DNA of 64,000 nucleotides from an uncultured Lachnospiraceae bacterium (GTDB taxonomy: Bacteria; Bacillota; Clostridia; Lachnospirales; Lachnospiraceae), in NCBI GenBank assembly GCA_902779575.1, contig CACZBW010000002.1, forward strand, positions 1 through 64,000, written 5' to 3'. The translations under genes and the position numbers were made by a program. The notes under the pieces were generated by a model, which worked only from the letters and a program-made list of their open reading frames with translations, did no database searches and had not been told where the DNA came from. The number at the start of each line of letters is the position of its first letter. Position 1 is the stretch's first letter. Positions 2,385-10,700 of the stretch are shown here, one piece after another.

Positions 2385-3188
2385 TTATTTAACAAAATGG
2401 GTAATAGCATTTGAATATGTGAAGTTCCTGTTGATACACCTATCAAGTTGATCTTGGGCATATTCTAGTGTTGTCGGATCTTTATCGCAGCTTATTGAGT
2501 TTCTGCCTGTTTCAATGCATACTCTGGTCGATATTGCTGACCCTGCGAATAAGTCCATTACTGTGTCACCCTCGGAGCTTAGCCCTTTAACCAGTCTTTC
2601 GATTATAGCATATGGTTTCTGTGTGGGGTGCCCCACTCGTTCTAAAGAATTGCTGTTTAATCTTGATATTTCCCATACGTTTGTGGGATTTTTCCCTTTA
2701 TCCAGGTTATCGGGATTCAGTCTCTTATCCCTTTTATATAGTTCAAGCGTAGCCGCATCATACTTGATACGTATGTCGTCAAGATTAAAAGTATATTTCT
2801 TGGTTTTTGCAAACCACATTATTTCTTCATGCCGATTAGAAAAGAAGCGCCTGGCAGAAATACCATTCTTATAATACCAAATGATGACATTAACTAACTT
2901 TAATTGTGTGTGTGATCTAATATAATGCACTAGTTCAAAAAGGTCACCACGCCCAGCATTTTCAAACTGAAATCCACCGAAAAGAACTAAATTTCCGGTT
3001 CTTGATAAAACACGATAAGACTCCTCGATCCATTGAGAAGCCCATTCTATATAATTATCATAAGAATCCCACTCCGCGATATCAATATTATACGGCGGAT
3101 CAGCAATAATAAGCTGAATTGAATTATCTGGTATTTGCTTTAGACAATCAAGTACATCACAAACAATTACCGCATGTTTAGTTTCCAT
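2385..3188 (-). CDS. RsrI-like N6-adenine DNA methyltransferase (predicted GAATTC)
   Basis: It is predicted to methylate adenine in GAATTC and protect DNA from the neighbouring EcoRI-like nuclease. The catalytic motif IADPPYN is near the N-terminus (Asp30-Tyr33) and the SAM-binding motif VMDLFAGSA is near the C-terminus, which is the beta-class order. From memory of M.RsrI, long blocks match closely: RHEEIMWFAKTKKY, KRLNPDNLDKG, NPTNVW and SLERVGHPTQKP. It is 267 residues, shorter than M.RsrI (about 319), mainly at the termini. It has its own promoter, separate from the nuclease operon, which would let methylation come first. The ribosome binding site (AGGAAGGG) is rather far from the ATG. 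Confidence 0.93.
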   Translation of the reverse strand: METKHAVIVCDVLDCLKQIPDNSIQLIIADPPYNIDIAEWDSYDNYIEWASQWIEESYRVLSRTGNLVLFGGFQFENAGRGDLFELVHYIRSHTQLKLVNVIIWYYKNGISARRFFSNRHEEIMWFAKTKKYTFNLDDIRIKYDAATLELYKRDKRLNPDNLDKGKNPTNVWEISRLNSNSLERVGHPTQKPYAIIERLVKGLSSEGDTVMDLFAGSAISTRVCIETGRNSISCDKDPTTLEYAQDQLDRCINRNFTYSNAITHFVK

Positions 3189-3353: not shown

Positions 3354-4184
3354 TTATCTTTTACTAAGCTGATCAAAAAGATCTGAGCCCAGCATCTTTA
3401 AGGAAGTGCGCGCAACATCAAGCATGACCATGATCATGTCTTCATCATTCCAATGTCCGCCTTCTCCCTTAGTGTATATTGAAGCCGCCTGTAACATGAT
3501 GGTTGCACCATTGCATTTTACGAATTTGTTTTCACAAAGATTTGTATTAATTGGCATTCCATAGTTAGCTGCAGTCAGCCGGTCAAGTCTATTCAATGTA
3601 CCGTCATTGTAAACCAAGGTCACTTCTCTGCCGTCAGGTCTTTTGACCGTAACGTTCTGAGTCAAAAAGTTAGAGCCCTCCAAAAATAGTATGTAAGGGA
3701 AATATCGTTCGGCCAGCATGAAATTAGCTATCTCATTAACATTTTTATAAGCTCTTTCTATAGCATTTCCGGCCGCCATGAGGTCTTGATTATTTTTCTT
3801 CCCTACAAGTTTTCCAGCTTTGATGTTTTCAATATCCTTGCCTTGATGTTTAGCCTCTGATACCAGCACAACACGCCAATTTCCATTATCATCCTGTACT
3901 TCAATAAGACCACCATCAGGTCTTATGCTTGCACTTTCGACAAAAAGTGTCTGTCCTAAGTATTTATCAACTTTCTGCAAAGCCTCATTTATCTCTTTTT
4001 TGGACAAGTCCTTCCTGTAACGAAAAGTAAGCATAGGGAACTCATACTCAAGCTGTTTTATAACAAATAGCGAAGTATTACCGACCTCTTTGTCGTGGAT
4101 TTGAGCGTCTTTATGGAAAATAGTAATCGGTCCCTGTCCCTCTTTTTGCTGTACAGTAAGTCTATTTGACTGTCCTTTTTTCAT
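3354..4184 (-). CDS. EcoRI-like type II restriction endonuclease
   Basis: It is predicted to cut unmethylated GAATTC. The 276-residue protein is collinear with EcoRI (277). The catalytic residues appear as PDGG (Asp90) and SEAKHQGKD (Glu110, Lys112), one position off EcoRI Asp91/Glu111/Lys113. The recognition segment MAAGNAIER, which in EcoRI reads the GAATTC bases, is identical, and RLDRLTAANYGMPIN is also conserved. AAAGGAG precedes the ATG. It is the last gene of the long defence operon, 34 bases after the zinc-ribbon methylase and before a strong terminator. No inactivating change is visible. Specificity is inferred from conserved recognition residues. Confidence 0.95.
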   Translation of the reverse strand: MKKGQSNRLTVQQKEGQGPITIFHKDAQIHDKEVGNTSLFVIKQLEYEFPMLTFRYRKDLSKKEINEALQKVDKYLGQTLFVESASIRPDGGLIEVQDDNGNWRVVLVSEAKHQGKDIENIKAGKLVGKKNNQDLMAAGNAIERAYKNVNEIANFMLAERYFPYILFLEGSNFLTQNVTVKRPDGREVTLVYNDGTLNRLDRLTAANYGMPINTNLCENKFVKCNGATIMLQAASIYTKGEGGHWNDEDMIMVMLDVARTSLKMLGSDLFDQLSKR

Positions 4185-4218: not shown

Positions 4219-6003
4219 TTATTTCAGAAAATATTTATTGCCATTTTTGTCGCATGTACGATCCAGCCATGCTGCAATTTCTTTGTCGTCCGGAACTTCA
4301 GCCAAATTATATTCGTTAACTAATTTTATAATCTGGGACTGCACAGCGCGCATTGTTTTTCCGCCCTGTAAAAACTCTGGATCTAGTAACTCGAAGGCAC
4401 TCTTTTTTACATTTGAGCCTATACTATGTGGTTTTCCATCTTCCGCCTTGCGATAAGTGATGAAAGCACTAACCGGATTCGTGTCATTTATATGATTAGT
4501 GTGGAACGTTGTTCCTCTTTCGTTTTCAACTATATTAATAAACTCAAAACCTAAGCGCACCTGCATGATCTCCTTAAGTTCGTTCCATATATTGCTAAAC
4601 TTACTATGGAAGGCCACCGTGAAATACGCTCCGGGTTTAAGCACTCTAAACACTTCTCCAAAAGCCTTCTCTATATATGATCCCCAAAGTTCCACATATC
4701 CTTCCTTCTTTTCATAATCCATAGGAATCATTATTTCATTTTCAAGGTCTTCTTTTTCATGCAGCCAAGCACTATAAAACAAGTTTAATTCCGCATATGG
4801 TACCATGCCCCCATACGGCGGATCAATAAAAGCATAATCTACCGAGCAATCTGGAATATCTATTTTTTTCGCATCTCCACGTATGATTCGAATGTCTGAC
4901 CTTGTCTTTTCCTGATCTAACTGATTCTGCAAGAAGGCCTTTGCCTCAGAGATAGCTTTATACTTGCGTTTAAACACGGTAAGAACATTCTGTTCTTTTC
5001 CGACAGGAGGAATATGATAAACATTTTTTATGCCCGAACCAGTAAATAATCGACTACTCGTCCTGAACAAAGTTTCCAAAAAGATGAACTTCATGAAGCT
5101 CTTTACACTGTAGTCTTGAATCTCTTCTTCGATATAACGATTTAATATTTTCAATGCAATAAGATTGTTCTTAGGGAACAGATCACTTACAGAAGCGTCT
5201 ATGGCAAAGCCAGGCCATCCTCCGACTCTTGGATAAGCCCTATTATATACAATCTGCTCGCTAGGCGACCATAAATCTCCGTATTCTTGCTCATACCGAG
5301 CTAAAGTACTAGCCCACAATTTCTTATCATCATCTGTAATTTCGCGGGTTTCCTTTTTACCCTTCTTCCCCACAGGCTGTATAGTAACTTCTACAGGTCT
5401 TCTTTTATCAGTCTGAAGCTCTTTTATCTTTTTATCTGCTATATTGATAATTTGTCCACAGTGAGGGCATTTGTATTCGGATCTTTTTCCGGTCTCATTC
5501 TTATACAGGACTATTTCTTCATGACAGCTTGGGCATGCATATACATTACTAGCAATGATTACTTCGCTATATCCTTCTGAGCCATCGGACAGCAGCGTTG
5601 TATATATTCCATTAATAATTGGCTCGAGTTTCTTAACCAGTGATTTATATTCCTTGTCTAGCATCTTCAAATCAACATAGTTAATTATGTTGTATTCCAT
5701 ATTGACAGCAAGAGGGCTATCATCCATCAAAATGGCTTTTCTCCCCTCTAACAGAGCCGCGACGCCAGTAGATCCACTCCCTGCACAAGTATCGAGCACC
5801 ACTCCACCTGCTTTTGTATAAGACCTAATGTATTTTTGAATATTCTGGTAGAAAATCTTACTGGGGTAGCCAATCGATTTGAATATAGGGTCCCCCATAC
5901 GTTTCTTGTCGCTAAAGTCTTCATCGTGAAAATGAAAGTCACTATTAACACAGGATTCAGTATTAAAGAATCCTTGCAAGTCCATATATTCTTCTTTTTT
6001 CAT
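4219..6003 (-). CDS. Zinc-ribbon adenine-specific DNA methylase (COG1743-like)
   Basis: This 594-residue protein is predicted to methylate adenine in DNA. The SAM motif VLDTCAGSGSTG lies near residues 66-77. A zinc ribbon with two pairs of cysteines (CPSC and CPHC) lies near residues 157-184. The catalytic motif IDPPYGG is at Asp394. The SAM motif comes first and the catalytic motif last, with a large central insert that could read the target. A GGAGG site precedes the ATG at 6003. It is cotranscribed with the EcoRI-like nuclease, although the cognate GAATTC methylase is more likely the RsrI-like one. It may be a second modification specificity; its target cannot be told from the sequence. 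Confidence 0.82.
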   Translation of the reverse strand: MKKEEYMDLQGFFNTESCVNSDFHFHDEDFSDKKRMGDPIFKSIGYPSKIFYQNIQKYIRSYTKAGGVVLDTCAGSGSTGVAALLEGRKAILMDDSPLAVNMEYNIINYVDLKMLDKEYKSLVKKLEPIINGIYTTLLSDGSEGYSEVIIASNVYACPSCHEEIVLYKNETGKRSEYKCPHCGQIINIADKKIKELQTDKRRPVEVTIQPVGKKGKKETREITDDDKKLWASTLARYEQEYGDLWSPSEQIVYNRAYPRVGGWPGFAIDASVSDLFPKNNLIALKILNRYIEEEIQDYSVKSFMKFIFLETLFRTSSRLFTGSGIKNVYHIPPVGKEQNVLTVFKRKYKAISEAKAFLQNQLDQEKTRSDIRIIRGDAKKIDIPDCSVDYAFIDPPYGGMVPYAELNLFYSAWLHEKEDLENEIMIPMDYEKKEGYVELWGSYIEKAFGEVFRVLKPGAYFTVAFHSKFSNIWNELKEIMQVRLGFEFINIVENERGTTFHTNHINDTNPVSAFITYRKAEDGKPHSIGSNVKKSAFELLDPEFLQGGKTMRAVQSQIIKLVNEYNLAEVPDDKEIAAWLDRTCDKNGNKYFLK

Positions 6004-6539: not shown

Positions 6540-8855
6540 CTACTTGATTCCCATCATCATTTTGAAATGCTGATCTTGCCCCATGTGGTGAAAGATCTCC
6601 TGGAACGTTTCTCTGCACTGTTCTATATCAATAACGTCATCCACATAGTGAAGTCCGTCATTAACACCGTAGGTGGTGGCCGCTATGTAAGAAAGCATAG
6701 TGGTTGCCATGTCGAACTTGGTATAGTCTTCATTACCTTCCGCATCATGTGTTAAATCTGGCTTGTGTTCCTCCAGTATAGTACGTCGCAACTGGCTGCC
6801 GTCAAATCCACATATCTGGAGAAAGTAGTACTCAAGGATTCGCCGGATTACATTGATGAGTGGAATCGCAGAAGTAACATCTTTCAACTCCTTATACTCA
6901 TCCCACAGTGCAGCATAGGAATTCTTTACGGGATTTACGTTCATCCATTCTGTGGGGCAGTCCGGATCTCGTCTGCGCTTCAAGTCAACGGAGGATCTAT
7001 TTTCTCTCTTCTTAACAAGGTAGAAAGATACAAACTCGTACCGATGAGCATGCGGATAAGTGATTTCTCGGTGGAAATATGCATTATGGGTCAGGATGAA
7101 TATCTGCTTTATGAAGTTTCCTTTCATCACTGCGTCTCGGTTATCTGCGTTGTTCCTGCAGATCTCGATCATCTTCCGTACCTGTTCACCGACGATGAAA
7201 AGTACGCCACTGTCCATACTCGATACAGGATCGTCAATGACTACAATTTTCTGTCGGCTGTCACCCTCAGCTGATTCGCTTCCAAAAACCCTCTGTTGAA
7301 AATACAAGAAGGCTATGAAATTCTTTTCGCCTTCACTCAAATCTTCAGCCACTAAACCGGTATCTGTCCTAACGACCTCATAATTGATTGACGGACCGGA
7401 TTCTGCACCTGGGCCCCCTGTTTTGCATGGACGGACTTCAAAGCCCTGAAAACCTGCGTCCCGAAGCATAGTGTTGATATTGGCAATCGCAGTCTCTGTC
7501 TCGACCGTCTGGCTGCGCAGATCGCGTAGTTCCCCTTGGATTATTTCCACGGTTTCATTCTGCTTGTTAATCGTAGTCTGTAGATTCTGCATTTCCTTAC
7601 TCAATGCAGTATCGCTGCGGTTATATGCTTCGAACACGTCCCTCAACACGAAAGCCATGTGCTCAAAAACTAGATCCCGGCACTCTTTCTTTTTCTTCGG
7701 CCCTGCTTCCACTATGACATTATTCTGATCGATAAGTTTATTGAATCCCTCAATCAACTCAGATAGGTCTTGCATCAAGGAGGCCGTCGGCTCCAGACTG
7801 ACGATCTTGGTAGGGTCTTCCTGTTTTTCTTTAATAAGATCTATATTCGTTGTGATAGCAGCCCTCAAGGCCGCAAGTTTGTCCTGATACTTCTTTATTT
7901 CGACCGCCGGATAAATGTCCTGCGGCACCTGCGATAATGGTACAAATAGAGCGTTTGCAGCATCTCGGTAGGCGGTCAGAAAAGCGTTAAGTCGCTGAAG
8001 ATTCCTTTCGTATCTATTGTCAAAACTGTCCGCCATCATCTTTTCAAAATCATCCTGGAGAGGACGTGAGCAGTACGGACATTTTCCGTCAGCCTTAACG
8101 TGATATGCCTCATGGCCTTGCCGGAACCATTCTGTAGCACCGAGATCGTTGAGGAAAGATGCGAACTCTGTCTGTGCGGCGTTTACGATCACCACTCTCA
8201 AAATGTCCCCACCTTCTATCTCGTCGAGAACCGATGTGTCAGCTATGGTGTTGAACCGGGGATATCTCTTAGCGGTATCAGAATACGCTGCATCACACAT
8301 CCGCCGAAGCTCATCCAGGTCATGTTCGACCGGGCTGTGTCTTTGTACCTCCTCGGTAAACTGCCTGGATTTCTTTTTCCCTTCTTGGGTTTCATCAAAC
8401 CTTTCACGCAGATCACTGGTTTTATCCCAACAGTCTTTGAATAACTGTTTCTGAAGCTCAACCCGGATACCTCTTTTTTTCTCATATTCTGCAGAGGCAT
8501 CAGCTGATGCTTTTCTCGCATCCGACTGCAAGGCAGATTTTTCATCGATCTGTTCCTGGATTCTGACGTTCACATCGTTGATTGTAAAAACTCCCGGGAG
8601 TGAATGATAGCTGGCTACATTCCGGTTGATAAAATCCTGATTGTAAACCAACGGAATGTAATCTGCATGTGACCGTCCCGGGGCATATGTCACGCCCGTT
8701 CCGGACTGGATTGCTTTTGCTATGGTTGACTTTCCAGTGCCGTTATTACCAAAGAAAAAGTTCACATACGTAGGCTCAATTACGGCATGCGTCCCCTTAA
8801 AAGTAGCATCGTCCAGTTCAATCTTTCTAATCTCACTCGGCAGTTTATCTGGCAT
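6540..8855 (-). CDS. RloC/PrrC-like AAA_13 ATPase with zinc hook
   Basis: This 771-residue protein is an SMC/ABC-type ATPase. Walker A is GNNGTGKST (residues 36-44), the ABC signature LSEGE is near residue 507, and Walker B VVIDDP is near residue 539. Coiled coils flank a zinc-hook CPYC (Cys259, Cys262). The C-terminus has RRILE (Arg671/672, Glu675) and a later NDGLH (His736). This recalls the Arg-Glu-His nuclease centre of the anticodon nucleases PrrC and RloC, but the spacing is wide and activity is unproven. PrrC and RloC genes are often linked to restriction systems, as here. It is the third gene of a cassette with two unknown proteins. An alternative is the ATPase of an ABC-three-component system. 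Confidence 0.8.
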   Translation of the reverse strand: MPDKLPSEIRKIELDDATFKGTHAVIEPTYVNFFFGNNGTGKSTIAKAIQSGTGVTYAPGRSHADYIPLVYNQDFINRNVASYHSLPGVFTINDVNVRIQEQIDEKSALQSDARKASADASAEYEKKRGIRVELQKQLFKDCWDKTSDLRERFDETQEGKKKSRQFTEEVQRHSPVEHDLDELRRMCDAAYSDTAKRYPRFNTIADTSVLDEIEGGDILRVVIVNAAQTEFASFLNDLGATEWFRQGHEAYHVKADGKCPYCSRPLQDDFEKMMADSFDNRYERNLQRLNAFLTAYRDAANALFVPLSQVPQDIYPAVEIKKYQDKLAALRAAITTNIDLIKEKQEDPTKIVSLEPTASLMQDLSELIEGFNKLIDQNNVIVEAGPKKKKECRDLVFEHMAFVLRDVFEAYNRSDTALSKEMQNLQTTINKQNETVEIIQGELRDLRSQTVETETAIANINTMLRDAGFQGFEVRPCKTGGPGAESGPSINYEVVRTDTGLVAEDLSEGEKNFIAFLYFQQRVFGSESAEGDSRQKIVVIDDPVSSMDSGVLFIVGEQVRKMIEICRNNADNRDAVMKGNFIKQIFILTHNAYFHREITYPHAHRYEFVSFYLVKKRENRSSVDLKRRRDPDCPTEWMNVNPVKNSYAALWDEYKELKDVTSAIPLINVIRRILEYYFLQICGFDGSQLRRTILEEHKPDLTHDAEGNEDYTKFDMATTMLSYIAATTYGVNDGLHYVDDVIDIEQCRETFQEIFHHMGQDQHFKMMMGIK

Positions 8856-8870
8856 TCATTTCCTCCATAA

Positions 8871-9518
8871 TCACATCGGCCGCTTCATATTTGGAATTTG
8901 CGCCTGATCAAAAGCTTCAAACAGATTGACTTTATGCACAGACCACGCACTGTGGTTCAAATCCGTGATGGCACAATCCATATTTAAATCAAAATAGATA
9001 GCATTTTTCTTCTCACACAGTTTTGCCTGGAAGAAAGGTGCGATAGGCTGGAACGCAACTTTAATGTCCCGCCCCACCTTCATCACGCGCCGTATGTAAG
9101 CATACATTCCCATCTGTTCCGGATCGGTTATGCCTCTCAGTTCGGTATTCTCCCGGCAGATAAGAGCCGGAAATGTCTGTAGTTCTTTTATTCCTTCCTC
9201 GGTTAAACCGGAGCACCTTTCAAATATCTCCGGAGGGACGAGTCTCTGACAAAGAGCGCGATCGGCAGAAACTGTGACTATGTTGTCCTTAAAAACAGAT
9301 TCTTCACAGGTAACTAAGAGCTGATAGTACCGCTTACTGAAGCGTTGAACAGCCATCATTTCTTCTGCGCTGCCAATGACCGCACCTTGCTGAATATTGT
9401 AGTTGAAATTGACTATGCCGCCCTGCTGATTCGTGACATTGACATTGTTCTTTCCCACCTGCCCTACAGCTGGCGTGCCGGGAGGCATTATCTGCTGAGT
9501 CACAATTTCATTGCTCAT
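8871..9518 (-). CDS. Unknown protein with N-terminal Gly/Asn/Gln motif
   Basis: This 215-residue protein is not recognised. Residues 18-42 form a low-complexity beta-prone stretch, GQVGKNNVNVTN followed by QQGGIVNFNYN, and then IQQG. The upstream protein ends in a closely similar motif. The remainder (residues 50-215) looks globular and mixed alpha/beta, with no transmembrane segment or familiar catalytic motif. GGGAGG precedes the ATG, 12 bases after the upstream stop, so the two are almost certainly cotranslated partners. It ends 15 bases before the ATPase. It may relay a signal to the ATPase; that is inference. Confidence 0.75.
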   Translation of the reverse strand: MSNEIVTQQIMPPGTPAVGQVGKNNVNVTNQQGGIVNFNYNIQQGAVIGSAEEMMAVQRFSKRYYQLLVTCEESVFKDNIVTVSADRALCQRLVPPEIFERCSGLTEEGIKELQTFPALICRENTELRGITDPEQMGMYAYIRRVMKVGRDIKVAFQPIAPFFQAKLCEKKNAIYFDLNMDCAITDLNHSAWSVHKVNLFEAFDQAQIPNMKRPM

Positions 9519-9530
9519 TACCGGCCTCCC

Positions 9531-10700
9531 TTAAAAATTGAAATTCATAGTCCCGTTGTTCGTGACGTTTATGTTGTTGTCTCCATTCTGGATGACATTG
9601 GTCTGTTGCTGAATGATGGTCGTTTTCTGTCCTTCCTGTCCCGGATCTTCTTCCGTGGCAGTTTTTTCATCCTCAGTAGTCTCCGATTCTGAGGCCGCTT
9701 TCTCCTGGCGCTGACCCTGTCTAATCTGTTCTGCCCACGAGTGCCTTTGAGCTTTAAGGACAGTAGCAATGGCTGCAGCGCCTTGCATAAGGTTCTCCTT
9801 CTGCTGATCGTCTGGGGTCACCGCTTTTGCTGCAGCGGCAACAGTTTCAATCACACCTGTCATTGCCTCTGTGTTTATCTTTGGAGTGCTTATACCGCCA
9901 AATACGGATGCCAGGGCCTCACTCGTCCGAAGCAGGGAACCATTAATTACTTCATCATCTGTTTTATCACCGGCATCCTCACTCGGAGTCAAAGATGCTG
10001 GAGCAACAGCAGTTTTCACAACTGCTTGATAATCCTTCTTTGTATAGAGATTAACCGTGATTGTTCTGGTTATTGCATCGCCAAGATGCCCATTATACTG
10101 CCGCTCTTTATATTTCACCTTACTGCTATTCGCATCCAGCGTTGGTACACCAAGATAATTGCAATCTGCTCGGTGGAGCAAAATGAAATGAAGTACCCCC
10201 AAAAGAAACGGCTGCAATTCGAATACAGTTTCATTTCTCAACTCTGCTTTTGTAATAGATGCTCCATCGCCCCTAACATAGAACCTATCCCCATCCAGGA
10301 TTTCGTTGTCATTCTCTATAACATCCAGGCAAGCCTTGACGAACCACCCACGCATTTCAGGGTTAAGATGCCACTTAACAAACTTACATGTTCTGGCAAG
10401 GGCCTCCTCATATCTCTCCGTTACGGTACTGTCAAAAGCAGAAATATATGCCATGTCATTGAATGGCACGTTAATGCTTCCTTCAATTTTTCCTTCCCGA
10501 TAATTTGATGTATCAGACGAAGACCCAGCTGTCTGTACTCCGGTAAATATATAAACCAAGTCCGACATAAAGATCGGATTCTTATGTTCATCCTTAATAC
10601 CGTCTTGATGTTCTCTTGGACTTGCGTCGGGCAGCGCGGCCTTTCTTAGAAGCAGATACAGAACGCATCCGCTCAAAAAGGGAACGTTTTTCTCTGTCAT
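9531..10700 (-). CDS. Unknown protein with C-terminal Gly/Asn motif, first gene of defence operon
   Basis: This 389-residue protein is not recognised. Residues 1-230 look globular, with a weakly hydrophobic N-terminal stretch (LSGCVLYLLL). Residues 230-310 are Ala-rich and probably helical. Residues 320-360 are a Gln/Glu/Lys-rich linker. The last 20 or so residues are VIQNGDNNINVTNNG then TMNFNF, matching the motif at the start of the next protein. GGAGGG precedes the ATG. It is the first gene after the promoter at 10,861-10,889. By analogy with paired amyloid motifs, its globular part could be either sensor or effector. No activity can be assigned. Confidence 0.75.
   Translation of the reverse strand: MTEKNVPFLSGCVLYLLLRKAALPDASPREHQDGIKDEHKNPIFMSDLVYIFTGVQTAGSSSDTSNYREGKIEGSINVPFNDMAYISAFDSTVTERYEEALARTCKFVKWHLNPEMRGWFVKACLDVIENDNEILDGDRFYVRGDGASITKAELRNETVFELQPFLLGVLHFILLHRADCNYLGVPTLDANSSKVKYKERQYNGHLGDAITRTITVNLYTKKDYQAVVKTAVAPASLTPSEDAGDKTDDEVINGSLLRTSEALASVFGGISTPKINTEAMTGVIETVAAAAKAVTPDDQQKENLMQGAAAIATVLKAQRHSWAEQIRQGQRQEKAASESETTEDEKTATEEDPGQEGQKTTIIQQQTNVIQNGDNNINVTNNGTMNFNF

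Follow-up and report, generated by a model that had tools for sequence, protein, structure and literature searches.

The closest described relatives of the system reported here are the bacterial amyloid signalling sequence (BASS) 1-10 pairs, which comprise NOD-like receptors (NLRs) and Bell-domain proteins, and the fungal NWD2/HET-S, sigma and PP pairs. Portions of the published accounts describe a matched motif of about 20-25 residues shared by the products of adjacent genes, which lies at the C-terminus of one and close to the N-terminus of its partner, within tails that are predicted to be disordered and that fall into many motif classes (PMC12261475, PMC7889193, PMC8086366). A gene pair that is alike in these respects, here termed A-B, is found in the window, a 64,000-nucleotide stretch from an uncultured Lachnospiraceae bacterium (contig CACZBW010000002.1, positions 1 to 64,000). 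Unlike BASS pairs, A-B has no NLR and no recognised Bell domain, and A is partnered by a small protein of PUA-like type, behind which an ABC ATPase or another machine is encoded. A-B loci are largely of prophage type and mostly labelled as Clostridia, whereas part of a review places BASS pairs mainly in filamentous actinobacteria and cyanobacteria (PMC7889193). Because it is without an NLR, and because A matched no described family, A-B is not to be filed as a BASS pair; it would be an NLR-free variant of the principle used by NLR pairs, with a putative amyloid form. An earlier note, made from the window sequence alone, had proposed the NLR-type analogy. Its adjacent matched motifs stand and both window tails are predicted to be disordered, but none of A, B and the ATPase is an NLR, no NACHT or NB-ARC family being listed for them (Pfam, to E = 1).

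The pair comprises the following features:

9531..10700, minus strand: protein A, 389 residues; in the AlphaFold2 model, a helical N-terminal domain of the A-I type, a linker, a long-helix region and a C-terminal tail that is predicted to be disordered and bears the motif
9534..9590, minus strand: A-side motif QNGDNNINVTNNGTMNFNF, residues 371-389 of A
8871..9518, minus strand: protein B, 215 residues; in the AlphaFold2 model, a disordered N-terminal stretch of 48 residues that holds the motif, followed by a compact alpha/beta domain
9396..9461, minus strand: B-side motif QVGKNNVNVTNQQGGIVNFNYN, residues 20-41 of B
8874..9374, minus strand: B core domain, residues 49-215 of B, PUA/EVE/YTH-like by structure comparison with modest scores

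The order is A, B, ATPase, all on the minus strand, with 12 bases between A and B and 15 between B and the ATPase gene. The full C-terminus of A is TNVIQNGDNNINVTNNGTMNFNF, and the two motifs read NINVTN..NFN in A and NVNVTN..NFN in B, with a local alignment score of 58. The earlier note had described a matched Gly/Asn/Gln motif at the C-terminus of one protein and the N-terminus of the next; its placement is right for the A tail, but the B motif lies near, not at, the N-terminus. Its quotation of the A tail gives the motif as described, with one T omitted between NNG and MNFNF.

Relatives were collected by querying B against its own genome and related genomes, viral contigs, genome contigs, plasmids and phage records. 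The motif recurs in neighbouring genes, C-terminal in A and N-terminal in B, in 77 A-B pairs (69 distinct), which reduce to 40 representatives at 80% B-core identity. Another 17 of the 94 rows were dropped before this count: repeat records (L001, L008, L014, L052, L075, L077, L090), loci with no separate upstream A gene (L012, L013, L032 and L048, each of which lies near a contig end, and the fused L046, L066 and L067), the second of two tandem B genes in L073 and in L089, and L054, whose head is short. The A gene was taken as the longest open reading frame (ORF) in range, irrespective of motif, except that in L073 a 111-residue upstream ORF was hand-picked over a longer one. The source genome contains another such system on contig C7, complete with A, B and an AAA_13 ATPase, and the pair there reads NMVIPNYGTITIN in A and NVLIPNYGTVNIN in B. 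About ten motif classes can be distinguished by eye, including those of L015 (GEKNIHIDRVDTL / GEKNVHVDHADNI), L043 (KTYNIKDSTVTF / KTYNIQDSNVNI) and L070 (EQSGKGTQIGFVENYYE / EQSGKGKQIGFVQHYEE).

The A and B motifs vary together. Pairing was scored between the last 40 residues of A and up to 66 residues preceding the B core, neither stretch being picked by motif. Across the 40 representatives, cognate pairs have a mean score of 55.2 versus 30.6 for non-cognate pairs, and none of 20,000 permutations reaches the observed value, which confirms the match that the earlier note had claimed for one locus. The result is the same with 25 representatives (56.7 versus 30.2) and with 53 (54.7 versus 30.9), each with 0/20,000 permutations, while A tails aligned to the far end of their own B score 18.4-19.0. 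The cognate score exceeds the swapped score in 99 of 107 pairs of representatives with a B-core identity of 50% or more, with one tie. The cognate partner is top-ranked for only 10/40 A tails and 14/40 B heads (7/25 and 13/25 at the stricter level), likely because loci of one class match each other. Such matched, co-varying motifs in adjacent genes, C-terminal in one and N-terminal in the other, are the arrangement by which amyloid signalling motifs of the BASS type are recognised.

It is very improbable that the likeness is a functionless product of low-complexity composition or of recent DNA duplication or conversion. Both tails are indeed rich in Asn, Gln, Gly, Thr and Ser (fractions of 0.47 and 0.48; A bodies have 0.27 and B cores 0.25). 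However, the permutations preserve sequences and composition, so that chance and low complexity are rejected at 0/20,000, and a motif profile finds nothing else in the source genome. Identity at aligned positions is 426/854 (0.50) for cognate pairs versus 0.375 for non-cognate ones, and in the 40 pairs the same codon is used at 184 of 423 identical residues, versus 185.2 expected from local codon use. Codon agreement is no higher than expected; therefore recent gene conversion or DNA copying is not the cause and is rejected, and the motif match is maintained at the protein level.

The module is rare. The motif profile was built from 24 peptides that include the window and C7 pairs, so that these match by construction; in the 3.55-Mb source genome, at E <= 10, it has four sites only, the A tail and B head of the two systems. 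At E <= 0.01, matches occur in 4/392 genomes of the order and 3/391 of the class, samples that overlap and both contain the source genome. Among 14 motif sites in the order search, 12 lie within loci read as A-B pairs and 2 form the pair of genome G441, described below. Two other genomes in the class search have a single marginal match each (E 0.001 and 0.008), in proteins that look unrelated; the former is a 477-residue protein ending in ITIVNGGKNNLQIASNNTVNFAWN (L109, genome G727). A common linker, the objection anticipated in the earlier note, is ruled out for the classes in the profile by this rarity across the order and class samples. The profile covers some classes only, and misses three (G148, G098, G268) of the six B-positive genomes of the order.

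Matches to B are similarly few, in 6/392 genomes of the order and 5/398 of the phylum (source genome counted in). The widest scans with B yielded 32 genome loci and 43 viral loci, and no match among plasmids. As labelled, the genome loci are mostly from Clostridia, with some from Negativicutes (Selenomonas, Acidaminococcus, Megasphaera), two from Corynebacterium, and others from metagenome bins assigned to Prevotella, Bacilli and Desulfobulbaceae. The B genes that lack an upstream A gene are, with the exception of three fusions, all near a contig end. A literature search confined to the open PMC library found no published description of the A-B module.

The A proteins have two main types of body, A-I (54/77) and A-II (15/77), the remaining eight being short, truncated or divergent. 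The window A is of type A-I, yet the seven nearest B cores (64-68%) sit in A-II loci with a near-identical tail. Similarly, L050 and L055 have A-II bodies with a tail class that is found on A-I bodies at L015 and L016. Tag and A body are thus separable, and the body is swapped while the tail keeps matching B.

Natural A-B fusions occur at three loci and are of two kinds: L046 consists of A-I followed by B, and L066 and L067 consist of A-I, a middle domain and B. Against the motif profile, which was built from separate proteins and not from fusions, L046, L066 and L067 score -4.3, -3.9 and no match, compared with medians of 24.4 (A) and 18.7 (B) for separate proteins. With no detectable motif in the fusions, a covalent link appears to replace the tag. 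On the other side, 5/77 separate A proteins and 8/77 separate B proteins, mainly of divergent classes, do not exceed the best score of a shuffled tail (8.8) either. At the G441 locus, an A-I remnant still ends in a motif tail, and behind it stands a distinct protein with a matching N-terminal motif and the start of a middle domain; this domain is fused to A-I in L056 (58% identical over the shared part). The G441 locus is broken and is described only; it lies on contig 14 (L101/L104), where, by eye, a Nudix-type ORF lies between the two motif ORFs and a short similar stretch is present near both flanking genes.

The tag is also found on a third protein. In L034, the gene after the ATPase (L034:7907-8992) encodes a protein kinase (PF00069, E 3e-36) whose N-terminus bears an AEKIYNIEH motif; its scores are 53 with the A motif and 57 with the B motif of the same locus. 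The summed score is 110, versus 61 for the best of 200 shuffles. No other ORF of at least 60 residues in the stretches of the 77 loci passed the same filter, including the second B genes of L073 and L089, where two B genes with heads similar by eye stand in tandem. Compared with viral contigs, the kinase has one partial kinase match only, at 31%. Its layout is reminiscent of kinases that carry the RIP homotypic interaction motif (RHIM).

The RHIM of RIPK1 and RIPK3, and the RHIM-like BASS3 and PP motifs, resemble the A-B motif in sequence as well: the 24 aligned peptides have Q-x-G, often with N three residues on, which we take to be like the RHIM core, and in both cases the motif also occurs on a kinase. 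Pfam includes a RHIM family. Unlike a RHIM, neither the window A nor B has a Pfam RHIM match to E = 1, a result to be read with the caution that short motifs can fall under filters, and some classes, such as the AEKIYNI class, are without the Q-x-G core.

We see a slightly better than even chance that the paired motifs are a homotypic tag that joins A to B without an NLR, probably by in-register cross-beta stacking. Tails that carry a near-identical sequence of 20-25 residues, at the end of A and the start of B, might bind like to like, and in-register stacking of a cross-beta (beta-arch) form, as in the amyloid signalling motifs of NLRs and their effectors, would be the most probable form. 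In-register stacking predicts that the partners are similar. Perhaps the PUA-like core of B, or the ATPase or other machine encoded behind B, senses a nucleic-acid state linked to infection. The B head could then be freed or concentrated and could nucleate a mixed stack with A tails, and the helical domain of A, as the exchangeable output part, would thereby be clustered and switched on. Like-charge matching was dropped as evidence for stacking, because non-cognate alignments give the same ratio; this failed control lowers the odds of a cross-beta form a little. A plain tether is also compatible with the sequence evidence.

Such a static tether would be a small, constitutive, non-amyloid beta complex that holds A and B as one machine, with no templating. 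The tag-less fusions are as a tether would predict, and the loci read have the A and B genes next to each other. On the other side, the partners resemble each other, which stacking predicts and a lock-and-key fit need not produce; a third protein, the L034 kinase, can bear the same class; and classes that look unrelated keep a similar composition rich in Asn, Gln, Gly, Thr and Ser. None of these points is decisive, and we regard the tether as an unlikely but serious alternative to the homotypic tag.

A fuller form of the homotypic-tag reading, which we hold only tentatively, is that A-B is an NLR-free amyloid signalosome of prophages with diversified tag classes, in which a B protein resembling readers of modified bases templates exchangeable A outputs and the tags evolve in step. 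It would include the two kinds of A body, one RIPK-like case of tag plus kinase, and coexisting systems that stay largely apart. If this is true, bacteria would have a second use of signalling amyloids, one independent of NLRs. Whether such NLR-independent amyloids exist in fungi and bacteria is posed as an open question in a section of a field review (PMC7889193). With the A-B module, this question can be put to a direct test in short peptides and small proteins. Many matched pairs have diverged in nature, including two that share a genome, and offer material for studying the specificity of homotypic beta motifs; the natural fusions show when the motif is dispensable.

Neither A nor B matches a Pfam or NCBIfam family above cut-off or a PHROGs family at E <= 0.01, and with hmmscan to E = 1 the single entry for A is YqfQ, below cut-off, and B has none. 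Profile searches of PDB sequences with B and with A gave only weak, unrelated-looking matches, and in PADLOC the one match was that of B, weak and partial, to a type I specificity profile (E 0.012). In the AlphaFold2 model of A, ten-residue means of pLDDT are 82-98 for residues 11-220 and below 50 for residues 340-389. Searches of PDB and BFVD with the whole model of A, in which the A-I domain was not searched alone, had no match at E <= 0.001, the best E-values being 3.6 and 1.7; the VIA rows mainly cover residues 245-344. Membrane insertion of A was rejected, since a 19-residue Kyte-Doolittle window reaches 1.6 in only 6/77 A proteins and the window A peaks at 1.47. Because so few A proteins are hydrophobic enough, a pore role like that of Bell or HeLo domains is unsupported.

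The core of B aligns over 107-126 residues with PUA/EVE/YTH-type proteins (VcaM4I, McrB-N, YTH), and restriction-modification genes are found nearby. The scores of this structure comparison are modest, and suggest a resemblance to readers of modified bases. In L013 (L013:305-1216), a B-like domain without the motif is fused to a C-terminal part of about 140 residues. A by-eye reading of this part as TIR was dropped, since neither Pfam (E <= 0.01 for the full-length protein, E <= 0.1 for its C-terminal part) nor PDB sequences returned a match.

Other features of the window are as follows:

6540..8855, minus strand: ABC ATPase of the AAA_13 (Rad50/RloC-like) type, 771 residues, PADLOC candidate PDC-S06
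3354-4184, 2385-3188 and 4219-6003, all minus strand: EcoRI-family restriction endonuclease and two DNA methylases
247-2250: ORF resembling a phage-type polymerase, by eye

The genes downstream of the ATPase encode, in order, a HARE-HTH protein, a DNA methylase, the EcoRI-family endonuclease (PF02963, E 1e-148) and the second methylase. The ATPase matches PF13166 (E 1.3e-107) and the PDC-S06 profile PDLC04890 (E 4e-198), and has no match among PDB sequences. Among relatives, the ATPase of L005 is also AAA_13, and the others were found by similarity to those of the window and L005.

The earlier note had linked the pair to an RloC-like ATPase; the window ATPase is of the AAA_13 type (PDC-S06), but without the RloC triad spacing. 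Like the anticodon nucleases RloC and PrrC (AAA_13), these ATPases have a Walker A pattern, a C-x-x-C in the middle part as in a zinc-hook insert, and R-x3-E near the C-terminus. By loose patterns, the first two are present in 52/52 sequences; in an alignment, each residue of R-x3-E is present in 50/52 (R671-x3-E675 in the window). Part of a study of RloC describes a triad in which Arg-x3-Glu is followed by a His 36-52 residues past the Glu (PMC2610378). Unlike RloC, the window ATPase is without a His at this spacing, and two further proteins go with the ATPase of A-B loci. Such a His is found in 19 of 50 sequences scored, and at a later position (736) the 52 aligned sequences have His in 15, Asn in 19 and Asp in 12. 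Because the triad is missing in the window and present in only 19/50, nuclease activity is doubtful in many members, which would fit an output moved to A.

ABC-three-component and Lamassu systems also combine an SMC/Rad50-like ATPase with further proteins, and have a varied output part, as far as the pertinent part of one report goes (PMC10586767). Unlike those systems, the window ATPase matches LmuB profiles (E 6.5e-22) far more weakly than PDC-S06. Pfam has families for the middle or C-terminal components of ABC-three-component systems, and none is listed for A or B at E <= 1.

The gene after B in 92 loci, repeat records included, encodes an ATPase in 74, an SNF2-type helicase in 7 and a product outside the rule in four, among them L054 (a helicase with a NOV_C domain) and L066 (DruA); the other 7 reach a contig end. 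Corresponding counts for the 40 representatives are 32, 3, 1 and 4. That an ATPase so often follows B would suit a model in which the A and B tails do not bind each other but share one docking pocket on another protein, for example the ATPase, and vary along with it. However, matched motifs persist where an SNF2-type helicase takes its place (L009, L018, L021, L024, L025, L049 and L053, some of them mutual copies, and by eye also L113 and L114), and we consider common docking a rather remote alternative. Because the pair also stands ahead of SNF2-type helicases, a NOV_C helicase and a DruA protein, A-B is a module of its own and not a fixed part of an RloC-like cassette, which narrows the link drawn in the earlier note. 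Matches to nSTAND3 are below cut-off and confined to two neighbouring proteins of the helicase/DruA type.

The A-B pair may be the front module of a prophage defence hotspot. Alternately, the coupling might be real and A-B, often accompanied by a small excisionase-like helix-turn-helix gene, a prophage housekeeping or lysis-lysogeny control unit at a cargo hotspot. A gene like the phage-type polymerase of the window, with companions, is seen by eye beside the pair in many loci, and an HTH_17/excisionase-like gene lies behind B in L002; the record of L005 also has one annotated. We nevertheless judge a housekeeping role improbable, as defence-type genes are among those behind the pair: the PDC-S06 ATPase, the EcoRI-type restriction-modification genes in the window, and HsdM, other methylases and DruA elsewhere. 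Scans of downstream proteins revealed HsdM in L019, L061 and L038, a double methylase in L050 and an Eco57I-type methylase in L070, and nothing above cut-off in L031, L055 and L063. In several of the SNF2-type helicase loci (L018, L049, L021, L024, L025, L113 and L114), a small helix-turn-helix gene is found between the A-B pair and the helicase, and in L018 the genes that follow encode a DUF4391 protein and a DNA methylase.
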